Source of the DNA: a virus
Direction: 5' to 3' (one strand)
IMG/VR virus record: IMGVR_UViG_3300031237_000003
Coordinates: 1 to 64,000 of that record
Length of the DNA stretch: 64,000 nt
The notes under the pieces were generated by a model. The model did no database searches. It was not told the DNA's origin and saw only the letters and a program-made list of their open reading frames with translations. A program made the translations under genes and the position numbers. Below are positions 1,523 to 25,936 of the stretch, piece by piece (position 1 is the first letter of the stretch; every line of letters starts with the position of its first letter).

Positions 1523-1547
1523 AAGAAAGGACACCGGGAGAAACTGC

Positions 1548-3917
1548 ATGAAGTGCAAAATCTGGGATTTTCTCAAAACCGCACAAGACCCCGGCGCACC
1601 GGGGCAATGTAATGTGGTCGAGAATGAGTTTAGATACTACTGCACGAATGAAGCGGGACACTCCGGGCCTCATCACGCACACACATTGTACGATTGTTAC
1701 CTGATCTGGTCAACAAACGTGTTTGCGGATGTTGCCGGCGCAGAAAACAAAGACGAAGCGCCCGTAGAAAAAACTCCGTCGCCGAATGGCGTTACTGAAG
1801 TTTCGTTTGTCGAGCAGTATTTAAACGCCGACCGAATCGGCGGCAAAGCAGCCGGATTGTATCGTCTTTCCCATACTTGCGATCTTTCAGTCCCAGAATA
1901 CGCGGTGCTTCCGGTCGCGGTTCCGCCAGTTAGAATTTGTGTCTCCCCTAGCGCGCCAATTTTGCATCGTCGTGTGGTATCTGTGCGTTCCGGCGCGCCG
2001 ACTTCTATGCCCGGAATGCTGAAAACGAAAATCCCCGTTCGCGGACCTGACAGGATAATAGCGGCGGCGCTGGAAGTTTACGAATCGTGGAATGCGCCGG
2101 AAGCAGTGGCGTACCGAGAGGCAAACGGAATTGCCGATACCGGCACGGCCGTAGTGATACAAGTCGTGCCCAAGAATATTGTGTATTCTGGAGTCGCGTT
2201 TACTTCTGACCCGAATCATACGCACGGAACGTCGTTCTTCCCGATTGTGGAAGCCGTCGAAGGCTTAGGGACGGCGCTGGTAGGCGGCGAGAAAAAAGGT
2301 GTAGAGATTTCTTTGTCTGACCCGCGTTTCGCGACGTTGTTCAAAGCGTTAATAAAGATTCATCAGAATCTAGGGCCTAGCGACGTAGAATGGTGCGCAG
2401 AAAACGCTCCGGATGAACCGGGCGGTTTGAAATTTTGGTTCTTGCAGCACCGCGCTTTGAAGTTCTCTAAGATTCCGGAGTCGGACACAGCGATTCCAGA
2501 TGGCGCCGAAAAACTCGCAGATTTGATGCCGATAGGCGCGTCGAGTACGGCGGTTATCGACAGCGAGACGTTTTTCTACTTAACGAACTTCTCGCCGTCC
2601 GAGTATACTCGGATGCAAAAAGCAGCCGCGATATTTGTCCGGAACGGATCGGCCACTTGTCATGCAGCGATTATAGCGCGGGAACTTGGAAAACCCGCGT
2701 TTTTGTTACCCGAAATCGTTTCTGCAACGATATACAAAGCGACAAAAAGCGGCGAAAAGCTGTTAGTCAACGGTTCGTCTGGCGCGGTATATCGTGTTCC
2801 GCCGGACTTCGTACCCGCGTTAGTCGTCGAGGAAAAGCCGAAACCGCCGAGACGAATTAACAACCCGAACACAGAACGATTCGTGTCCAGCTTCGTCTCC
2901 ATAGCGCCGTTAATGATCGACTTTTACCGTTCCTGGGAGAACGGAGACAAAGGCCGGGTCCGAGAGTACGCAGAAGTGATCGCGGGGTATTTGTATCTTT
3001 GCGTCGTAGCAGAACTACGGCATGTGCGTACTCGCGCGGATGGAGACGCGTATTGGAAATTAACCTCTGCGATGAAGAAAATCTCTCCGCAGATAGTCGC
3101 AGGTTTCGGCATTAAAGCTCGCGATAAGTTTATTTCAAGTTTTCTTCCGGAGCTTCCGCCGGAGAAGAAATGCCATGTGGTTTCGTTATCCATCGGGTAC
3201 TTTACCAAAATGAGCTGGTACGGGTCGTACGGCGGAAAAAAGTGGGCGGTTATCGCGACGCATTTGCTGCGCTGGATGACCGGGCGGTTATCGGATGCGT
3301 TGTTCCTGGACGGTGTTTTCAATCTGAAGCACAACTCTTGTTTGGTTTTCAACAAGCTGACGAATCTTACGATTGGTTTGAGCAGAGGTGACGAAGGGTT
3401 AATGGCGTTACTGGATTTGAAACAATCGTGTGGGTTAACTTTTATCGCCGATCCGCTTCGTATCGTCCAGTTGGTTAACGAAGCGTTTTGTCCGATCTGG
3501 TCAGATCCAGATGCGTTAGGTCGTCACCAAGCTAACAAACCGGTACAAGCGTACTGGCCTTTCATAAACGCCGCGTTCAGAAATTCTAACCGAGAAAAGT
3601 TGCGGGCCGGGTTTCCCGCATCGGAGCTTAAGCTAGTCGTGGACGACCCGGTAGAAGACGATGAAGAACAGCCGCCGGAAGAGGCTCCGCCGCAGATTCT
3701 TGAAGACGTCGAAGACGACGATAGTGTCCCCGAACCCGCCGAAACAAATAACGGCGCGGGGTCCGGAAACTGTGTAGACGAAACGTATAGTTTTTCCAGT
3801 TATCCAACGACGATCCCGGTAAACGAGGAGTCGTCGGCGTCGGAGGCGACAGATGAAAAAATCGCGGAAACACCGCAAGATTCGCCAGCACCGCAACATT
3901 CGCCAGAGCGTGCTTAG
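1548..3917 (+). CDS. pyruvate phosphate dikinase / PEP-synthase-like phosphotransferase, 789 aa
   Basis: The architecture matches the ATP-grasp plus swivelling phosphohistidine part of PPDK, PEP synthase and rifampin phosphotransferase. Visible motifs are GGKAAGL (98-104), VSVRSGAPTSMPGM (144-157, PPDK-like), DTGTAVVIQ (197-205), SGVAFTSDP (214-222) and LQHR (299-302). A swivel motif TCHAAIIARELGKP (370-383) keeps the catalytic His372. The C-terminal TIM barrel that binds PEP/pyruvate in PPDK is not seen; residues about 440-710 are unrecognised and about 715-789 form an acidic, Pro-rich tail. The N-terminal 45 residues carry Cys and His that may bind zinc. The ATG at 1548 follows GGGAG at normal spacing; an upstream TTG at 1476 is rejected. 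It probably moves a phosphate from ATP through His372 to an unknown acceptor. A phosphatase gene follows 28 bases later. Confidence 0.85.
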   Translation: MKCKIWDFLKTAQDPGAPGQCNVVENEFRYYCTNEAGHSGPHHAHTLYDCYLIWSTNVFADVAGAENKDEAPVEKTPSPNGVTEVSFVEQYLNADRIGGKAAGLYRLSHTCDLSVPEYAVLPVAVPPVRICVSPSAPILHRRVVSVRSGAPTSMPGMLKTKIPVRGPDRIIAAALEVYESWNAPEAVAYREANGIADTGTAVVIQVVPKNIVYSGVAFTSDPNHTHGTSFFPIVEAVEGLGTALVGGEKKGVEISLSDPRFATLFKALIKIHQNLGPSDVEWCAENAPDEPGGLKFWFLQHRALKFSKIPESDTAIPDGAEKLADLMPIGASSTAVIDSETFFYLTNFSPSEYTRMQKAAAIFVRNGSATCHAAIIARELGKPAFLLPEIVSATIYKATKSGEKLLVNGSSGAVYRVPPDFVPALVVEEKPKPPRRINNPNTERFVSSFVSIAPLMIDFYRSWENGDKGRVREYAEVIAGYLYLCVVAELRHVRTRADGDAYWKLTSAMKKISPQIVAGFGIKARDKFISSFLPELPPEKKCHVVSLSIGYFTKMSWYGSYGGKKWAVIATHLLRWMTGRLSDALFLDGVFNLKHNSCLVFNKLTNLTIGLSRGDEGLMALLDLKQSCGLTFIADPLRIVQLVNEAFCPIWSDPDALGRHQANKPVQAYWPFINAAFRNSNREKLRAGFPASELKLVVDDPVEDDEEQPPEEAPPQILEDVEDDDSVPEPAETNNGAGSGNCVDETYSFSSYPTTIPVNEESSASEATDEKIAETPQDSPAPQHSPERA

Positions 3918-3945
3918 CTGGTTCGCTGGAAACGAGGAGACAAAC

Positions 3946-5178
3946 ATGGGACAAGACCGACATCTCGGCAGTTTCGTATTCGGCGGTAACGCGAACGCTG
4001 ACGTCGATAAAACCGCCGTGACTGTAATCCAAGGTGGAAAATGCCGTCATGCTGCGACGCCCGTAAAAATCGGCGAGTATACGGTTTGGGCCGGAAGCGA
4101 ATACGCGATAACCAAAGAGAACCTGAGCGAGATCGACTGGGTGGTGACGCTGAACGGTAATCTTCCTGGAGGCAGCTATCTTCAGCCGTTGACGATAATC
4201 GACTGCGAGATGCAAGACTACAACGCGCCGAAAGCGGAAATGTGGCGCGTGCTGGTCGAATACTTCGCAGACGTGGTTAAAACTGGGAAACGGGTTTTGT
4301 TTTTCTGCACCGGCGGTCACGGCCGCACCGGGACTATGCTGGCGTCGTTAATTGCGTTTCTGGAACCGGAGATCGACGACCCGATAGCGGCGATACGCGA
4401 ACGGTATTGCGATAACGCGGTAGAATCATTGGCGCAGCGGAAAGCGATTTACGAAATCCTTGGCAGGGATCTGCCGGAGAAATACGCGGTAGTTGCGTCC
4501 ACCGCTGGCTGGGCTAGAAAAGATTGCGATCATGTTTGTCCGCAATGCCAGACGGCCTGGAAGCATTCGATAAACGCGACAGCCACGGCGTGCGAGTTCC
4601 CGGAAAAAGACCGCGATCTGTGCACGAAATGTTTTAGCAAAGTCCGCGCACAAACATGGAACCCGTCTACCGGGACGAGCACGGGGGGAACCCGTGTATG
4701 CGCGCACGTTTGTCCGTGCGGCGAAAACTGGTCGCACGATATAGCGCAGAACGCGGCGGAGTGTTCGTTTGCCAAAGAAGACCGCGATCTTTGCGTGGTT
4801 TGTTTTCAGACCGGGATGAAAAAGAAATCCGCCGTCGTCGGGACTGACCCGACTGCGCAGATTGTGGACGAAGATTGGCCCGATCAAGACGGCGTGATAT
4901 GTCACCACACTTGTCCGTGTGGAGTTCGCTGGTCGCATTTGCAGAGTGTGGATAACAAATCGTGTATTTTTCCGCTGGCGAATCGCGATCTTTGCTCGAA
5001 ATGTCTGACACCGGAGTATTGTAACGGCGGCAGCATGAAACGCTGTGAACACGAATGTCCGGAGTGTTCGTTACGCTGGACGCATTGGATCGCGGCAGAC
5101 GAGTCTTGCGCAGAAGACGTTTTCTGCTCCTCGGCATGTGAGCAGAAGCAGAAAGTTCCGAAGTTGATTGTTAACTGA
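3946..5178 (+). CDS. cysteine-based (PTP/DSP-like) phosphatase with four Cys/His modules, 410 aa
   Basis: Residues 1-175 form a protein-tyrosine/dual-specificity phosphatase-like domain. The P-loop is FFCTGGHGRTGTM with C121-x5-R127, and Asp91 (IIDCEMQD) is a candidate general acid. Then come four diverged Cys/His modules at about 194-229, 252-286, 319-353 and 367-398, sharing C-x-H-x-C-P-x(1,2)-C-x4-W-x-H and, except the last, RDLC-x2-C. They look like tandem zinc ribbons that could bind nucleic acid or protein. The ATG at 3946 follows GAGGAG (3934-3939); the longer frame from 3853 overlaps the previous gene and has no such site. Family knowledge supports phosphomonoester hydrolysis. The substrate is unknown; its position right after the phosphotransferase suggests the two act on the same target. 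Confidence 0.82.
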   Translation: MGQDRHLGSFVFGGNANADVDKTAVTVIQGGKCRHAATPVKIGEYTVWAGSEYAITKENLSEIDWVVTLNGNLPGGSYLQPLTIIDCEMQDYNAPKAEMWRVLVEYFADVVKTGKRVLFFCTGGHGRTGTMLASLIAFLEPEIDDPIAAIRERYCDNAVESLAQRKAIYEILGRDLPEKYAVVASTAGWARKDCDHVCPQCQTAWKHSINATATACEFPEKDRDLCTKCFSKVRAQTWNPSTGTSTGGTRVCAHVCPCGENWSHDIAQNAAECSFAKEDRDLCVVCFQTGMKKKSAVVGTDPTAQIVDEDWPDQDGVICHHTCPCGVRWSHLQSVDNKSCIFPLANRDLCSKCLTPEYCNGGSMKRCEHECPECSLRWTHWIAADESCAEDVFCSSACEQKQKVPKLIVN

Positions 5179-14243: not shown

Positions 14244-15188
14244 ATGGAGAGACTGTCAAGCTACTCCCATGTGCTGAACCTGGGGCACCGGGCGTTAGAC
14301 CCGTTGTTGACCGTCCCGGTCGTCGCGGAAGAAAAGATCGACGGGTCGCAGATATCGTTTGGCCGAGTCGGTGACGACGTGATCGTTCGGAGCAAAGGCG
14401 CGGACATCCCGGTTCCGGCCCCGGCCGGACACATGTTTCGCGTCGGCGTCGAGGAAATTTTGAAACGTCGCGAAGCACTTATCCCCGGCTGGACATATCG
14501 CGGCGAGTACCTGTCGAAGCCGAAACATAACGTAATGGCGTATTCGATGCTACCGTCCGGTAACATTGTGCTTTTCGATATCGAAACCGAACCATCCCGA
14601 TTCCTGCCGCCGAAAGAGAAACGAGAAGTCGCGCAGCGTCTAGACTTCACGCCAGTCCCGTCGTATGGCGAGTTCCAGATTTCCGCTCCTGACTTCACCA
14701 ATACTCTCAACGAGTTGCTGAAACGCGAATCTTGTCTCGGCGGTCCGATTGAAGGTATAGTGCTGAAGCCTCGGGACGGCAACGTGTTCGGCGTGGACGG
14801 AAAACTTTTGATCGCCAAAATCGTCCGTGCGGAGTTCCGCGAACGGCACGCGAAAGAATGGGGCGAAGCGAACCCGTCGAAGAACGATGTGATCGCAAAG
14901 TTAATCGTCGCGTTACGAACCGAGGCGCGGTGGCGCAAAGTCATCCAGCATTTGCGAGACGACGGTACTTTGCAAGGTTCAATGCGCGATATCCCAGTGT
15001 TACTGGAAGAATTGTCCGCCGATACGCTTCGTGAAGAAAAGGATTACATCGCGTCCGCGTTGTGGAAATTCGCGTGGCCGCAGATAGAACGTGGGTTACG
15101 ACGCGGTCTGCCGGAGTTTTACAAAGCGCAGTTACTTAACGAACAGATAGGAGAAGCGGATGCCAGAAGCGTTGAACCTAACTGCTAA
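14244..15188 (+). CDS. RNA ligase family nucleotidyltransferase, 314 aa
   Basis: Covalent nucleotidyltransferase motifs are in order: I EEKIDGSQ (29-36, Lys31 takes AMP), Ia RSKG (49-52), III YRGEYL (85-90), IIIa VLFDIETE (109-116), IV EGIVLKP (170-176), V AKIVR (191-195). No DNA-ligase OB-fold signature is seen after motif V, and a helical C-terminal part is more like Rnl2/Rnl5-type RNA ligases. Known roles are sealing nicked tRNA or other RNA during infection. Start after GAGGGG. A polynucleotide kinase partner is not recognised in the window. The next gene overlaps by 29 bases. Confidence 0.85.
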   Translation: MERLSSYSHVLNLGHRALDPLLTVPVVAEEKIDGSQISFGRVGDDVIVRSKGADIPVPAPAGHMFRVGVEEILKRREALIPGWTYRGEYLSKPKHNVMAYSMLPSGNIVLFDIETEPSRFLPPKEKREVAQRLDFTPVPSYGEFQISAPDFTNTLNELLKRESCLGGPIEGIVLKPRDGNVFGVDGKLLIAKIVRAEFRERHAKEWGEANPSKNDVIAKLIVALRTEARWRKVIQHLRDDGTLQGSMRDIPVLLEELSADTLREEKDYIASALWKFAWPQIERGLRRGLPEFYKAQLLNEQIGEADARSVEPNC

Positions 15189-18016: not shown

Positions 18017-19753
18017 ATGTCTACTTTTCCGATCCTCGGCGTTCGTAGCAAACCCTCGTTATGCGCGTTATGCCCATGGTCCGCCGATTCCCATTCGTTC
18101 GTTCCGGACTGGGTTCCGGCGTCTCCGAAGTTTGCTCTTTTGCTGGAAGGCCCCGGCGAAAACGAAGCCCTGAAACGTACCCCGCTAGTCGGCGCTTCCG
18201 GTGACATTACGTTCCATGCGTTTCTGCGTCCGTTAGGTTTAGAACGTGCGGACGTCATAATCGCGAATACATTGCGTTGCTTTGCTTCCTCAAAGACGGA
18301 AGTATTGACATCAACTGGATATCGACAAATGCTCCGAGTACAGCCGGGGGATTTAGTTCTGACTCACCTTGGAAGATTCAGGTCCGTTCTAAACAAGGTT
18401 AGAATAGCTTCAGAGTCTTCGGTGATAAAAATAGTCCGAGTGGACTCCAGAGGGCATAAGTCACATTATACAGTTAGTCTAGATCACTTGTTCATGACAG
18501 CCGTTGGTTGGAAACGAGCCTCGGACTTAAGAGCCGGAGACACAATAACAGTTGTGGCCGAGCGTTGTTTGGGCTGTGGAAAGGTCTTTAATAGAGGGCA
18601 CAAAAATCAGTTTCATACTCTCGCGTTTTGTTCACGTGAGTGTCAAGGCAAATTTGCTCCCTATGATTCCGAAGCCATCTCTAGAAAGCTAAAGGAAAAT
18701 TACCGGAATGGAACAAGAGATCCGTACCTAATAACAAAAGCTGCGAATGCAGCTACTCGCGATTTGATTAGAGAAGGTAAACACAATCTTCAAAACCTAA
18801 GTGCAGAAGCGCACGCTAAAAGCCGTCTTGCAACGGCTAAGACACGTGAGTTGCTAGGAGTAGGAGATTTTCCTTGGATCGGATTGGGGGAGCCGGAAGT
18901 TCATGCTGTTTTATTAGCTGCGGGACGTGATCCGGTATCACAGTTTTCTTTAGGTCCGTTCAACTTTGATTTCAAGGTAGGCAATGTTCTGATCGAGATT
19001 GATGGTCCGGGAACAAATAATAATCAAGCCCGTGTTACCGAAAGAAACAGCTTAAAAAGAAAACTGGCTGCTGAAGCCGGGTACTCTGTTATACACGTTC
19101 CATGTACTGCACCCGATTCGATCCTGTCGTTGTTGGATAACGATGAACATGAGTACTTGTTTATGGAATCGGAGGTAGTCGAAATTGCGGAGCAAAAGTG
19201 GAACCGGGGTATTTATTCATTGTCTGTAGAAGAAGATGAAAGTTATGTGGCGCAAGGTTTGGTCAACCATAACTGTCGCGGCGAAGCTAACGAGTATCCG
19301 GACGGCCAGACCCGGAAGAAAGCCGAACAGATTTGTCGTCAGTACGACTGGTACCACGGGGACTCCAGAGGTAACCTTGCCGCATCCGGAATCGCCGACT
19401 GGGACCCGAATCTCTTCGTCATTACGCTACACCCGGCTGCGGTTCTTCGCGAAAACGCCTATTTCTTCCTTGTCCGCCGCGACTTTGAGAAAGCCGCGCG
19501 GTTTATGGAACAAGGTTACCGCGTTTGTGTTCTGTGCGGCGATAAAGCGGCCGCGTTGGTTTTACCTGCTATCGAAGGTACTGGGGGCGTAAGCTACTGG
19601 CGCGGGCATTATTTCAAAGCCTCGTTGCGGACGGAACGGAAGTTGCTGGACACGTCGAGTGTCACCCGCGCGTTTCGGCCCGTTACCGCCACGTCGTGGC
19701 GGCGTAAGAAGTCGAAGAAGCCGACGTTAATTTTGCCGGGAGACTTGTTCTAA
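18017..19753 (+). CDS. uracil-DNA glycosylase, family 4/5-like, interrupted by an intein, 578 aa precursor
   Basis: After removing residues 88-419 the host protein is 246 aa. It shows CALCPW (Cys16, Cys19), LLLEGPGENE (water-activating region), TPLVGASG, IANTLRC/RGEANEYPDG and ITLHPAAVLR, the motifs of Fe-S uracil-DNA glycosylases (family 4/5, SPO1-polymerase-like group). Cys16, Cys19, the cysteine at the splice junction and Cys440 are the likely cluster ligands. It removes uracil from DNA. The ATG at 18017 has no visible Shine-Dalgarno site because tRNA-Tyr ends five bases upstream, so translation may need processing of the tRNA. The stop overlaps the next start (TAATG). Confidence 0.85.
   Translation: MSTFPILGVRSKPSLCALCPWSADSHSFVPDWVPASPKFALLLEGPGENEALKRTPLVGASGDITFHAFLRPLGLERADVIIANTLRCFASSKTEVLTSTGYRQMLRVQPGDLVLTHLGRFRSVLNKVRIASESSVIKIVRVDSRGHKSHYTVSLDHLFMTAVGWKRASDLRAGDTITVVAERCLGCGKVFNRGHKNQFHTLAFCSRECQGKFAPYDSEAISRKLKENYRNGTRDPYLITKAANAATRDLIREGKHNLQNLSAEAHAKSRLATAKTRELLGVGDFPWIGLGEPEVHAVLLAAGRDPVSQFSLGPFNFDFKVGNVLIEIDGPGTNNNQARVTERNSLKRKLAAEAGYSVIHVPCTAPDSILSLLDNDEHEYLFMESEVVEIAEQKWNRGIYSLSVEEDESYVAQGLVNHNCRGEANEYPDGQTRKKAEQICRQYDWYHGDSRGNLAASGIADWDPNLFVITLHPAAVLRENAYFFLVRRDFEKAARFMEQGYRVCVLCGDKAAALVLPAIEGTGGVSYWRGHYFKASLRTERKLLDTSSVTRAFRPVTATSWRRKKSKKPTLILPGDLF
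18278..19273 (+). mobile_element. intein with zinc, helical-repeat and nuclease-like segments, 332 aa
   Basis: Block A begins at Cys88 (CFASSKTEVLTSTGYRQML), block B has SLDHLF, and blocks F/G read YSLSVEEDESYVAQGLVNHN before Cys420, so Cys1, His-Asn and Cys+1 are all present. Between the splicing blocks lie CLGCG and CSREC (zinc-like, 184-209), helical NUMOD3-like repeats (about 218-280), and a DUF559/Vsr-like nuclease stretch (FNFDFKVGNVLIEIDGPG, 315-332, then KRKLAAEAGYSVIHV). No LAGLIDADG motif. Splicing should restore an intact glycosylase. Confidence 0.9.
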
Positions 19754-20520
19754 TGAAGCTGCTTATCTACAGCGACCTGCATTTGGAATTCGGCGACTGG
19801 ACGCTACCGGCTGACGCAGATGCGGATGTATTAGTGTTAGCTGGAGATATAATTTCATTCGTGAATTTCTCGCCGCTTCGCCGTTTCCTTTACGACTGGG
19901 CTAAACCTGTGTTGTATGTTGCGGGTAACCACGAATACTACACTAAATTGCCGATGGATACCTCAGAGGCAAGTTTTGCCTTTTGGCTAAACGTAAACTG
20001 CCCGAACGTCTCGTTATTGTCGGATAAACCAATTAGTCTAGACGGCGTCAATTTCTTCGGCGGTACGATGTGGACGTGGTTCGCAGATTCGGACTGGAAC
20101 GCAATGCACGACGCAAAGTACGCGATGTCCGATTTCCAGCTAATCCGGAACGCGGACGGAACAAAGTTCACGCCACACCGAAGCGTCGAGTTACACGAAA
20201 AGTTCGTCGCGAGACTTCACGACTGGTTTGACGAGCCGTTAGCCGGACCGCGCGTAGTTATCTCGCATCACGCGCCGGTTAGATACTCGAAGACCAAGTA
20301 CCGTAACGGGCCGTTGGAGCCTGCATTTAATTCATTAGACATGGTTCCGGTAATAGAAACACGGCAACCCGATCTGTGGATCTACGGACATACCCATGAG
20401 AACGACGACCAGACGATCCGTCGGACGCGCGTCGTGACAAACCAACGCGGGTATCCGGCGGGTGATGGGAAGTTCGAGTGCCGAGACTTCCAGCCGGAAG
20501 GTTTAATGGTGATCGTCTGA
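19753..20520 (+). CDS. calcineurin-like metallophosphoesterase, 255 aa
   Basis: The motifs are complete: SDLHLEFG (7-14), LAGDI (29-33), AGNHEYY, SHHAPVRY and YGHTHEN, which together bind two metal ions. Family members cleave phosphomonoesters or phosphodiesters, including nucleotides and nucleic-acid ends. Soluble, no signal peptide. It is coupled at both ends (TAATG with the glycosylase, TGATG with the methyltransferase). A second enzyme of this fold is at 25088; the substrates are not evident. Confidence 0.85.
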   Translation: MKLLIYSDLHLEFGDWTLPADADADVLVLAGDIISFVNFSPLRRFLYDWAKPVLYVAGNHEYYTKLPMDTSEASFAFWLNVNCPNVSLLSDKPISLDGVNFFGGTMWTWFADSDWNAMHDAKYAMSDFQLIRNADGTKFTPHRSVELHEKFVARLHDWFDEPLAGPRVVISHHAPVRYSKTKYRNGPLEPAFNSLDMVPVIETRQPDLWIYGHTHENDDQTIRRTRVVTNQRGYPAGDGKFECRDFQPEGLMVIV

Positions 20521-25087: not shown

Positions 25088-25936
25088 ATGACTAAGAAAG
25101 TCCGTAAGGAGCCGTTGTCCGCAACGGCCAGCAAATTCGTCGCGTTGTTTGACGTGCACGTTGGCTGGGAGTGGGCGCAGACCGGCGGGAAGCGCGTAGT
25201 CCGGCCGACGCATAACGAACCCGCGATCCGCGCGACGTTAGATTTCGTTCAGGACTTTGCGCCGGACGTCCTGATCTTCGGCGGCGACCAGATTAACTGC
25301 GGCCCCGTATCACATTGGCTGAAAGGAAAACCCCGGCTTGTTGAAGGCTTCCGGTTGAAGACGGAATTCGATAAGTTCCAAACTTTGTTCCACGATGTCT
25401 TATGTGGCGGCGCAGAGAATGTATGGCTGGACGGTAACCACGAAGCCTGGATACACCAGCTTGTAGATGAACAGCCGGGTCTGGAAGGGATGGTTGAGGC
25501 GCATTCGTACCTCGGGGGTTCCGGTGTGTGGAAGCATATCGTCTCACAAGGCGAAATGTACCAACTCGCGCACGGCGCGCGCAAAGCCAAACTGTACTTT
25601 GTGCATGGCGACTCCGTTCTTCAAGCCCGCCAGTACCGGAGTCCGGCCCGCGCCCTTGTCGAAGCGTACAACCGGAACATCCGCGCGGGCCATGTCCACA
25701 CATACGACGCGTACACAAAGAAATCGCCGATCGACAAGCAGGATTACCATTCCGGCGTGATCGTTCCCGCGCTGGCGTCGCGCGACCCGTACTACGTCAA
25801 ATCCGCGCCGTCGAACTTTATGCACGGTTTCGAGTACGGCTGGTTCTGGCCGGACGGCGAGTTTACGGACAATATCGTCGTGATTAACCGTGGCCAGTTT
25901 ACAGTGAATGGAAAACGGTATGGGAAGGAGAAGTAA
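25088..25936 (+). CDS. calcineurin-like phosphoesterase, 282 aa
   Basis: Motifs are ALFDVHVGWE (Asp and His), IFGGDQIN (GGD), WLDGNHEAW (GNHE), LYFVHGDS (HGD) and RAGHVHTYD (GHxH), the full metal set of the fold. AAGGAG upstream. Its closest look is to phage-type phosphoesterases with unknown substrates. Different in length and spacing from the one at 19753, so not a recent duplicate. Likely cytosolic. Confidence 0.82.
   Translation: MTKKVRKEPLSATASKFVALFDVHVGWEWAQTGGKRVVRPTHNEPAIRATLDFVQDFAPDVLIFGGDQINCGPVSHWLKGKPRLVEGFRLKTEFDKFQTLFHDVLCGGAENVWLDGNHEAWIHQLVDEQPGLEGMVEAHSYLGGSGVWKHIVSQGEMYQLAHGARKAKLYFVHGDSVLQARQYRSPARALVEAYNRNIRAGHVHTYDAYTKKSPIDKQDYHSGVIVPALASRDPYYVKSAPSNFMHGFEYGWFWPDGEFTDNIVVINRGQFTVNGKRYGKEK

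Follow-up and report, generated by a model that had tools for sequence, protein, structure and literature searches.

Pyruvate phosphate dikinase (PPDK) and rifampin phosphotransferase use a swivelling histidine to carry phosphate between the ATP site and an acceptor domain (PMC4844700), and in the two-component dikinase HpeHI the ATP-grasp, swivel and substrate parts are split over two proteins (PMC12167813). The nearest characterised relative of the enzyme studied here is VadK (Rv1127c), a truncated PPDK of M. tuberculosis that autophosphorylates His422 with ATP and Mg and has no phosphoenolpyruvate (PEP) domain (PMC13400623). Phage genome papers list the genes for PPDK and protein tyrosine phosphatase (PTP) independently of each other, as auxiliary genes (PMC12038007, PMC10671443, PMC9229204, PMC7326821, PMC5834331). 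Here, we describe two genes, A and B, in a virus sequence of 64,000 nucleotides (positions 1 to 64,000 of IMG/VR record IMGVR_UViG_3300031237_000003, which has 64,338 bases; hereafter, the window). Gene A encodes a PPDK-type kinase (K) fused to a domain that we call H, and gene B encodes a phosphatase. Our reading, which we hold with just over even confidence, is that the two genes constitute a compact phage cassette for reversible phosphorylation.

We fetched loci with three independent seeds (K, H, and P2, the phosphatase that follows H), and scanned the best 80 loci in each case with hidden Markov models (HMMs) of four families, the fourth being a further phosphatase, P1, that lies between K and H. 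The HMMs were built from the window, a 64.6-kb virus contig (L010) and named phages, and Pfam and PHROGs independently support each domain. We observed H in 123 distinct contigs; the module genes were always on one strand, and their order was K-P1-H-P2 in 95. When seeded on H, K was present in every contig having at least 4.5 kb upstream (55/55), while a phosphatase followed H in every contig having at least 1.5 kb downstream (67/67). When seeded on P2, H was detected by HMM in 67 of 70 contigs, and K together with H in 58. Two of the three contigs lacking an HMM match to H had an upstream open reading frame (ORF) of 994-1082 residues in which the H signature and a motif resembling a swivel were seen, and the third was a 5-kb fragment. 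The K seed yielded 60 distinct contigs, 14 with motifs of the PEP/pyruvate barrel and 46 without. Both H and a phosphatase accompanied K in 41 of the 46 barrel-less contigs (39/41 where at least 4 kb was available downstream), whereas neither was found near the kinase in any of the 14 others. In annotated phages of Rhodobacter, Vibrio, Stenotrophomonas and Rhizobium, the gene order likewise runs from a kinase through small genes and a PTP phosphatase to H, followed in most cases by another PTP phosphatase and then by DNA polymerase I.

A preliminary description of the locus had proposed a two-gene writer/eraser module, to be abandoned if the genes were not neighbours in related phages. The linkage is in fact strikingly kept and the proposal survives in this respect, although it overlooked H, a third obligatory partner on which the expected working of the kinase hinges, and, in most relatives, another phosphatase. 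The ratio of nonsynonymous to synonymous substitution (dN/dS) between DLP3 and Summit was 0.19 for K, 0.24 for H, 0.22 for P2 and 0.55 for P1. This indicates that all four genes are functional in the Stenotrophomonas phages, since each is under purifying selection.

In the window, a swivel dikinase, H and a dual-specificity phosphatase (DSP) lie in one directional cluster (1548-5178), which is how we define the cassette. Genes A and B are on the same strand and exactly 28 bases apart, in agreement with the preliminary description, which had also named the Cys-x5-Arg motif of the phosphatase correctly. The same arrangement was seen in L010, with identities of 46% for gene A and 48% for gene B. 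As K and H are fused in both, and P1 is absent between them, the pair in the window is a compact form of the cassette, consisting of a K-H fusion and a single phosphatase.

The kinase part of gene A matched PPDK_N (E=1.3e-22) and the PEP-utilizers swivel domain (E=7e-11) of Pfam. The swivel histidine is His372, in T-C-H-A-A, and the predicted ATP-grasp residues are Lys100, Arg147, Glu281, Gln300 and Arg302. Of 71 non-redundant module kinases, 68-71 retained the equivalents of PPDK Lys22, Arg92, Glu323, Gln335, Arg337 and His455. The Cys-x5-Arg motif was present in all P2 phosphatases (85/85) and in 70/71 of the P1 phosphatases. Since the active-site residues are so widely retained, the kinase and phosphatase assignments go far beyond chance. 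The PPDK/PEP-synthase-like phosphotransferase with a His372 swivel that had been proposed for gene A is borne out by Pfam and by these residues, and the ATP-binding signature of K, RSGAPTSMPGM, is nearer PPDK than PEP synthase. In Foldseek, the K model matched PPDK (1kbl, E=2.4e-12) and also rifampin phosphotransferase. A trimmed-alignment model of the full K-H fusion had a mean predicted local distance difference test (pLDDT) score of 66 and is usable only for the kinase and the H core. Used as a single-sequence query against viral contigs, the kinase of the window gave no matches; single sequences were insufficient, and the relatives were found through alignment-based searches. The donor part varies: it is PEP-synthase-like rather than PPDK-type in L029, and the swivel domain is a separate protein of 120-136 residues in L069, L080 and L098. 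The swivel His, H and a phosphatase are the constant elements.

When we scanned nine kinases (those of the window and L010, and seven from named phages), all of them matched the other two PPDK domains, and none matched the PEP-utilizers_C barrel; in the window protein the barrel is absent altogether. In L018, the kinase (L018:9377-11986) lies beside H and a phosphatase and aligns with PPDK over its full length, while the catalytic residues of its barrel are replaced at all five positions inspected. In C. symbiosum numbering, the replacements are R561->K, R617->Q, E745->D, N768/D769->D/R and C831->S. In evolutionary terms, this kinase appears to stand between PPDK and the phage kinases that have no barrel. 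For Vibrio phage J26, the published structural claim places the pyruvate domain at residues 524-691 with four strands (PMC12038007), which is about half of the usual eight-stranded barrel. Gene A thus shares with PPDK the ATP-grasp domain and the swivel His, but not a functional barrel. The published label of a 'PPDK metabolic gene', which points to sugar metabolism, is very likely wrong for the phage kinases, because in those tested the barrel is either undetectable or, in L018, stripped of its catalytic residues; that a phage 'PPDK' makes PEP is correspondingly very unlikely.

H occupies residues of about 436-640 of gene A as a separate domain and matched phrog_20946 (E=4.9e-14). With tblastn, it matched RcZahn gp10 and Vibrio phage proteins; in the Rhodobacter and Vibrio phages H is a free-standing protein of about 330-360 residues. 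A single-sequence search of viral contigs with H recovered L010 only, Pfam gave no family common to the H members, and a search of PDB sequences gave no match. The AlphaFold2 model of H from DLP5 was mostly helical (mean pLDDT 94.6). Foldseek found no relative of it in the PDB (best E=1.3, query TM-score about 0.2 or less), and in BFVD low E-values were obtained for phage proteins only. Across 81 sequences, Y55, Y99, E107, R109, H110, G179, G180, W183, D205, H212, N213, K220 and L235 (DLP5 numbering) were invariant. The divergent H group that includes the window, whose alignment is too variable for use as a search query, retains E-x-R-H, GG-x-x-W, H-N and K. In a quick tree, the window and L010 grouped together (100) inside a divergent clade of nine rows (98). 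The invariant polar residues look like an active or ligand site. H represents a protein family of novel-looking fold whose polar core needs explanation, and it is the only part of the cassette that does not belong to a known family.

H is essentially confined to phages. It is carried by 40 named phage records (Vibrio 33, Stenotrophomonas 4, Rhizobium 2 and Rhodobacter 1) and by only 6 of 84,980 prokaryote species genomes, each time with the cassette; a search of plasmids gave no match. Fusions of H to K or to a swivel domain were found separately in the window and L010, in L135, and in L153, L119 and L140. Two giant ORFs, L119:6006-9251 (1082 residues) and L140:6207-9188 (994 residues), have the H signature, a degenerate swivel and many Cys motifs, and lie directly upstream of a P2 phosphatase; that of L119 also has a hexapeptide-repeat region.

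Gene B matched Tc-R-P (E=4e-9) and PTP-SAK (E=5.5e-8) of Pfam. On sequence grounds it is a member of the DSP/PTP superfamily, by its Cys-x5-Arg signature (CTGGHGRTG, residues 121-129) and the candidate Asp loop upstream. It also carries four repeats of the pattern C-x-H-x-C-P-x-C-G..W-x-H, with RDLC-x2-C after the first three. These repeats are conserved in L010 and are probably zinc-binding. While the preliminary description had named the domains of both genes, it had missed H, the Cys/His-rich N-terminus of gene A and the four repeats of gene B. Pfam gave no additional domain pointing to a target in the extended phosphatase and H proteins. We also observed that DLP3 gp141 (L251:7017-7793), its DLP5 homologue and phrog_17568 are labelled 'thymidylate synthase', but are actually DSP/PTP phosphatases, a misannotation that has been propagated.

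Starting from the observed gene content, order, linkage, active-site conservation and barrel loss, we infer an opposition of the two enzymes, its target and every catalytic step as follows. The ATP-grasp domain would split ATP and phosphorylate His372, as in PPDK, VadK and rifampin phosphotransferase, because the catalytic residues are conserved. The swivel domain would then deliver the phosphoryl group to H and not to pyruvate, since the PEP/pyruvate barrel is gone. H would replace the barrel as the acceptor-binding domain, as suggested by its repeated fusion to swivel domains, by the complete linkage and by its invariant residues (E-x-R-H, GG-W, H-N and K), and would direct the phosphate onto a target that may be H itself or a bound substrate. 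The phosphatase or phosphatases would remove the phosphate, and so reverse or trim the product, and the Cys/His repeats on A and B of this virus may recruit both enzymes to one target. A target shared by kinase and phosphatase is the most economical reading; the preliminary description suggested that it is perhaps host proteins or RNA. A more specific form of this is possible, though we put it forward only tentatively: the PPDK-derived histidine dikinase, acting through the all-alpha, new-fold H, may mark one macromolecule (a host protein, a nucleic acid or a phage replication protein), with the phosphatases as erasers, and the cassette may be a widely conserved, near-core function in large siphophages.

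Several points weigh against a writer/eraser cassette. The phages are related, so that the contig counts are not independent events, and barrel loss is judged from profiles of the sequence, from aligned motifs and from the length of the domain. At the C-terminus, the kinases of the main group retain a variable stretch of some 150-200 residues, which may have another binding role. Bacillus phage G gp139 (L008:3950-5047) is a compact ATP-grasp and swivel protein of 365 residues with no barrel, and neither H nor a phosphatase was found within 4-10 kb of it. Further, the phosphatases may catalyse a step that follows that of the kinase, or may take the phospho-His itself as substrate.

One alternative is a biosynthetic role, in which K and H phosphorylate a nucleotide intermediate or another small molecule and phosphate is removed later by the phosphatases, for example in making an unusual nucleotide for the neighbouring DNA polymerase A. 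This we consider unlikely, though it has some points in its favour. In 82 of the 92 module contigs, DNA polymerase A is encoded some 4 kb downstream, and small molecules are the substrates of related two-component dikinases (PMC12167813; PMC4844700). In the window, however, the polymerase is 16 kb from genes A and B, and we found no nucleotide-binding family common to the H proteins. We searched 40 records, almost all of which carry the module, and in 39 found no thymidylate-synthase-type gene. Such a gene is needed for hydroxymethyl pyrimidines, and hydroxymethyl-pyrimidine DNA modification is therefore not supported. Other neighbours are a family of about 280 residues, some 1.7 kb downstream of H and between P2 and DNA polymerase A in 73 of the 92 contigs (e.g. 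L005:6725-7570), for which Pfam gave no convincing match, and, between K and P1, small Cys-rich, winged-helix-like putative regulators and CsrA-like RNA-binding proteins (e.g. L004:3854-4336, L043:5465-6182). These neighbours hint at replication or regulation, and genome layout alone could explain them.

It is less probable still that the phosphatases regulate the kinase, by stripping phospho-His372 or a regulatory residue, with H as a regulatory or scaffold subunit. The tight linkage fits this equally well, the phosphatase and K being neighbours throughout. However, phosphoesters are the usual substrates of CX5R phosphatases of the DSP/PTP class, and the invariant polar core of H (E, R, H, D, H, N and K), together with its taking the barrel's place in the fusions, makes H look more catalytic or substrate-like.

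We give little credence to the inactivation of an antimicrobial or defence small molecule by phosphorylation, with an independent task for the phosphatases. The donor architecture is the same as that of rifampin phosphotransferase, but there is no rifampin-binding domain (33.7 bits with the NCBIfam RPH model NF041857, against a cut-off of 999), the obligatory phosphatases would be left unexplained, and H is essentially phage-only. A true PPDK, serving as an auxiliary metabolic gene for PEP/pyruvate and adjoined by an unrelated PTP (PMC12038007; PMC9229204; PMC10671443), is the hardest of all to credit: the ATP-grasp and swivel domains of K are clearly homologous to PPDK and a published docking model puts PEP in the C-terminal region, but the nine kinases without a barrel match (that of the window without any barrel), the half-barrel of J26, the replaced residues of L018 and the absence of the module from all 14 viral enzymes with barrel motifs speak against it.

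The features of the two genes are collected in Table 1. Promoter and terminator scans of the window gave chance-level results only. The window also encodes an RNA ligase (14244-15188), metallophosphoesterases (19753-20520; 25088-25936) and four tRNA genes.

Table 1. Positions in the window of genes A and B, their predicted domains and motifs.
Feature	Position	Strand	Basis or remark
Likely ribosome-binding site of gene A, GGGAG	1536..1540	+	7 nt before ATG 1548
Gene A, fused dikinase (K) and H domain, 789 aa	1548..3917	+	ORF, translation, Pfam, L010 sibling; start ATG 1548, stop 3917
Gene A, N-terminal Cys/His-rich extension	1548..1697	+	Sequence, pairwise alignment; kept in L010
Gene A, K part: PPDK-type ATP-grasp and swivel domain	1809..2801	+	Pfam, invariant columns, Foldseek
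Gene A, swivel phosphohistidine motif TCHAA, His372	2655..2669	+	Sequence, alignment
Gene A, H domain (proposed acceptor/substrate domain)	2853..3467	+	phrog_20946, tblastn, alignments
Gene A, H-domain motif ELRH	3012-3023	+	
Gene A, H-domain motif YGGKKW	3228-3245	+	
Gene A, H-domain motif LKHNSCLVFNK	3324-3356	+	
Gene A, acidic tail	3636..3737	+	Sequence
Likely ribosome-binding site of gene B, GAGGAG	3934..3939	+	6 nt before ATG 3946
Gene B (410 aa), DSP/PTP phosphatase of P2 type, with Cys/His repeats	3946..5178	+	Start ATG 3946, stop 5178
Gene B, candidate general-acid loop MQDYNAP	4210..4230	+	Alignment; D/N-x-P before Cys motif
Gene B, phosphatase signature CTGGHGRTG (Cys121, Arg127)	4306..4332	+	Sequence, alignment
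Gene B, four Cys/His repeats	4525..5085	+	Starts 4525, 4699, 4900, 5044; sequence

When we compared the cassette with described systems, VadK and K were found to be alike in having a PPDK-type ATP-binding domain and a swivel His, with the pyruvate/PEP domain missing. VadK differs in that its gene lies near methylcitrate-cycle genes, and the accessible part of its report describes no H domain, while its text mentions no phosphatase (PMC13400623). With NF004531, a model of 534 positions named pyruvate phosphate dikinase, which we took as a model of truncated PPDK, the window protein scored 63.4 bits, below the cut-off of 456, and K of Stenotrophomonas phage Summit scored 467.6 bits, above it. 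Rifampin phosphotransferase, HpeHI, CreHI and PpsAB share with the cassette an ATP-grasp domain, a swivel His and a third, non-PEP substrate domain, fused or split. The substrate domain of these enzymes has no relation to H, and no dedicated DSP-class phosphatases are described for them in the accessible parts of the reports. The ATP-grasp and swivel domains of the cassette derive from PPDK and PEP synthase, from which the cassette kinases differ in that they lack a working PEP/pyruvate barrel.

Plant glucan water dikinase and the DSP glucan phosphatases (SEX4, laforin type) offer an analogy only, in which a swivel-His dikinase is opposed by a DSP phosphatase on one target. Glucan water dikinase has a different domain order and glucan-binding modules; the cassette has no link to glucan and is not a member of that system. 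The stand-alone phage PTP/DSP proteins (Tc-R-P, PTP-SAK, phrog_17568) have the same fold and signature as gene B. They differ in that the cassette phosphatases, in almost all contigs, are linked with K and H and are often present twice, and in the Cys/His repeats of the window phosphatase.

The preliminary description knew of no phage system with this pair, and we too found none in the open-access literature, where both genes are published as separate auxiliaries and no paper was found treating K, H and the phosphatases as a single system. As far as we searched, the cassette is thus undescribed there, and is a variant of the swivel-His dikinase systems, not a member of PPDK. In dozens of phage genomes these genes had been filed apart, as extras for metabolism or signalling; they can be brought together as one unit, which would use a His-swivel dikinase for reversible phosphorylation. 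Such a route is otherwise known only from cellular metabolism and, recently, VadK.

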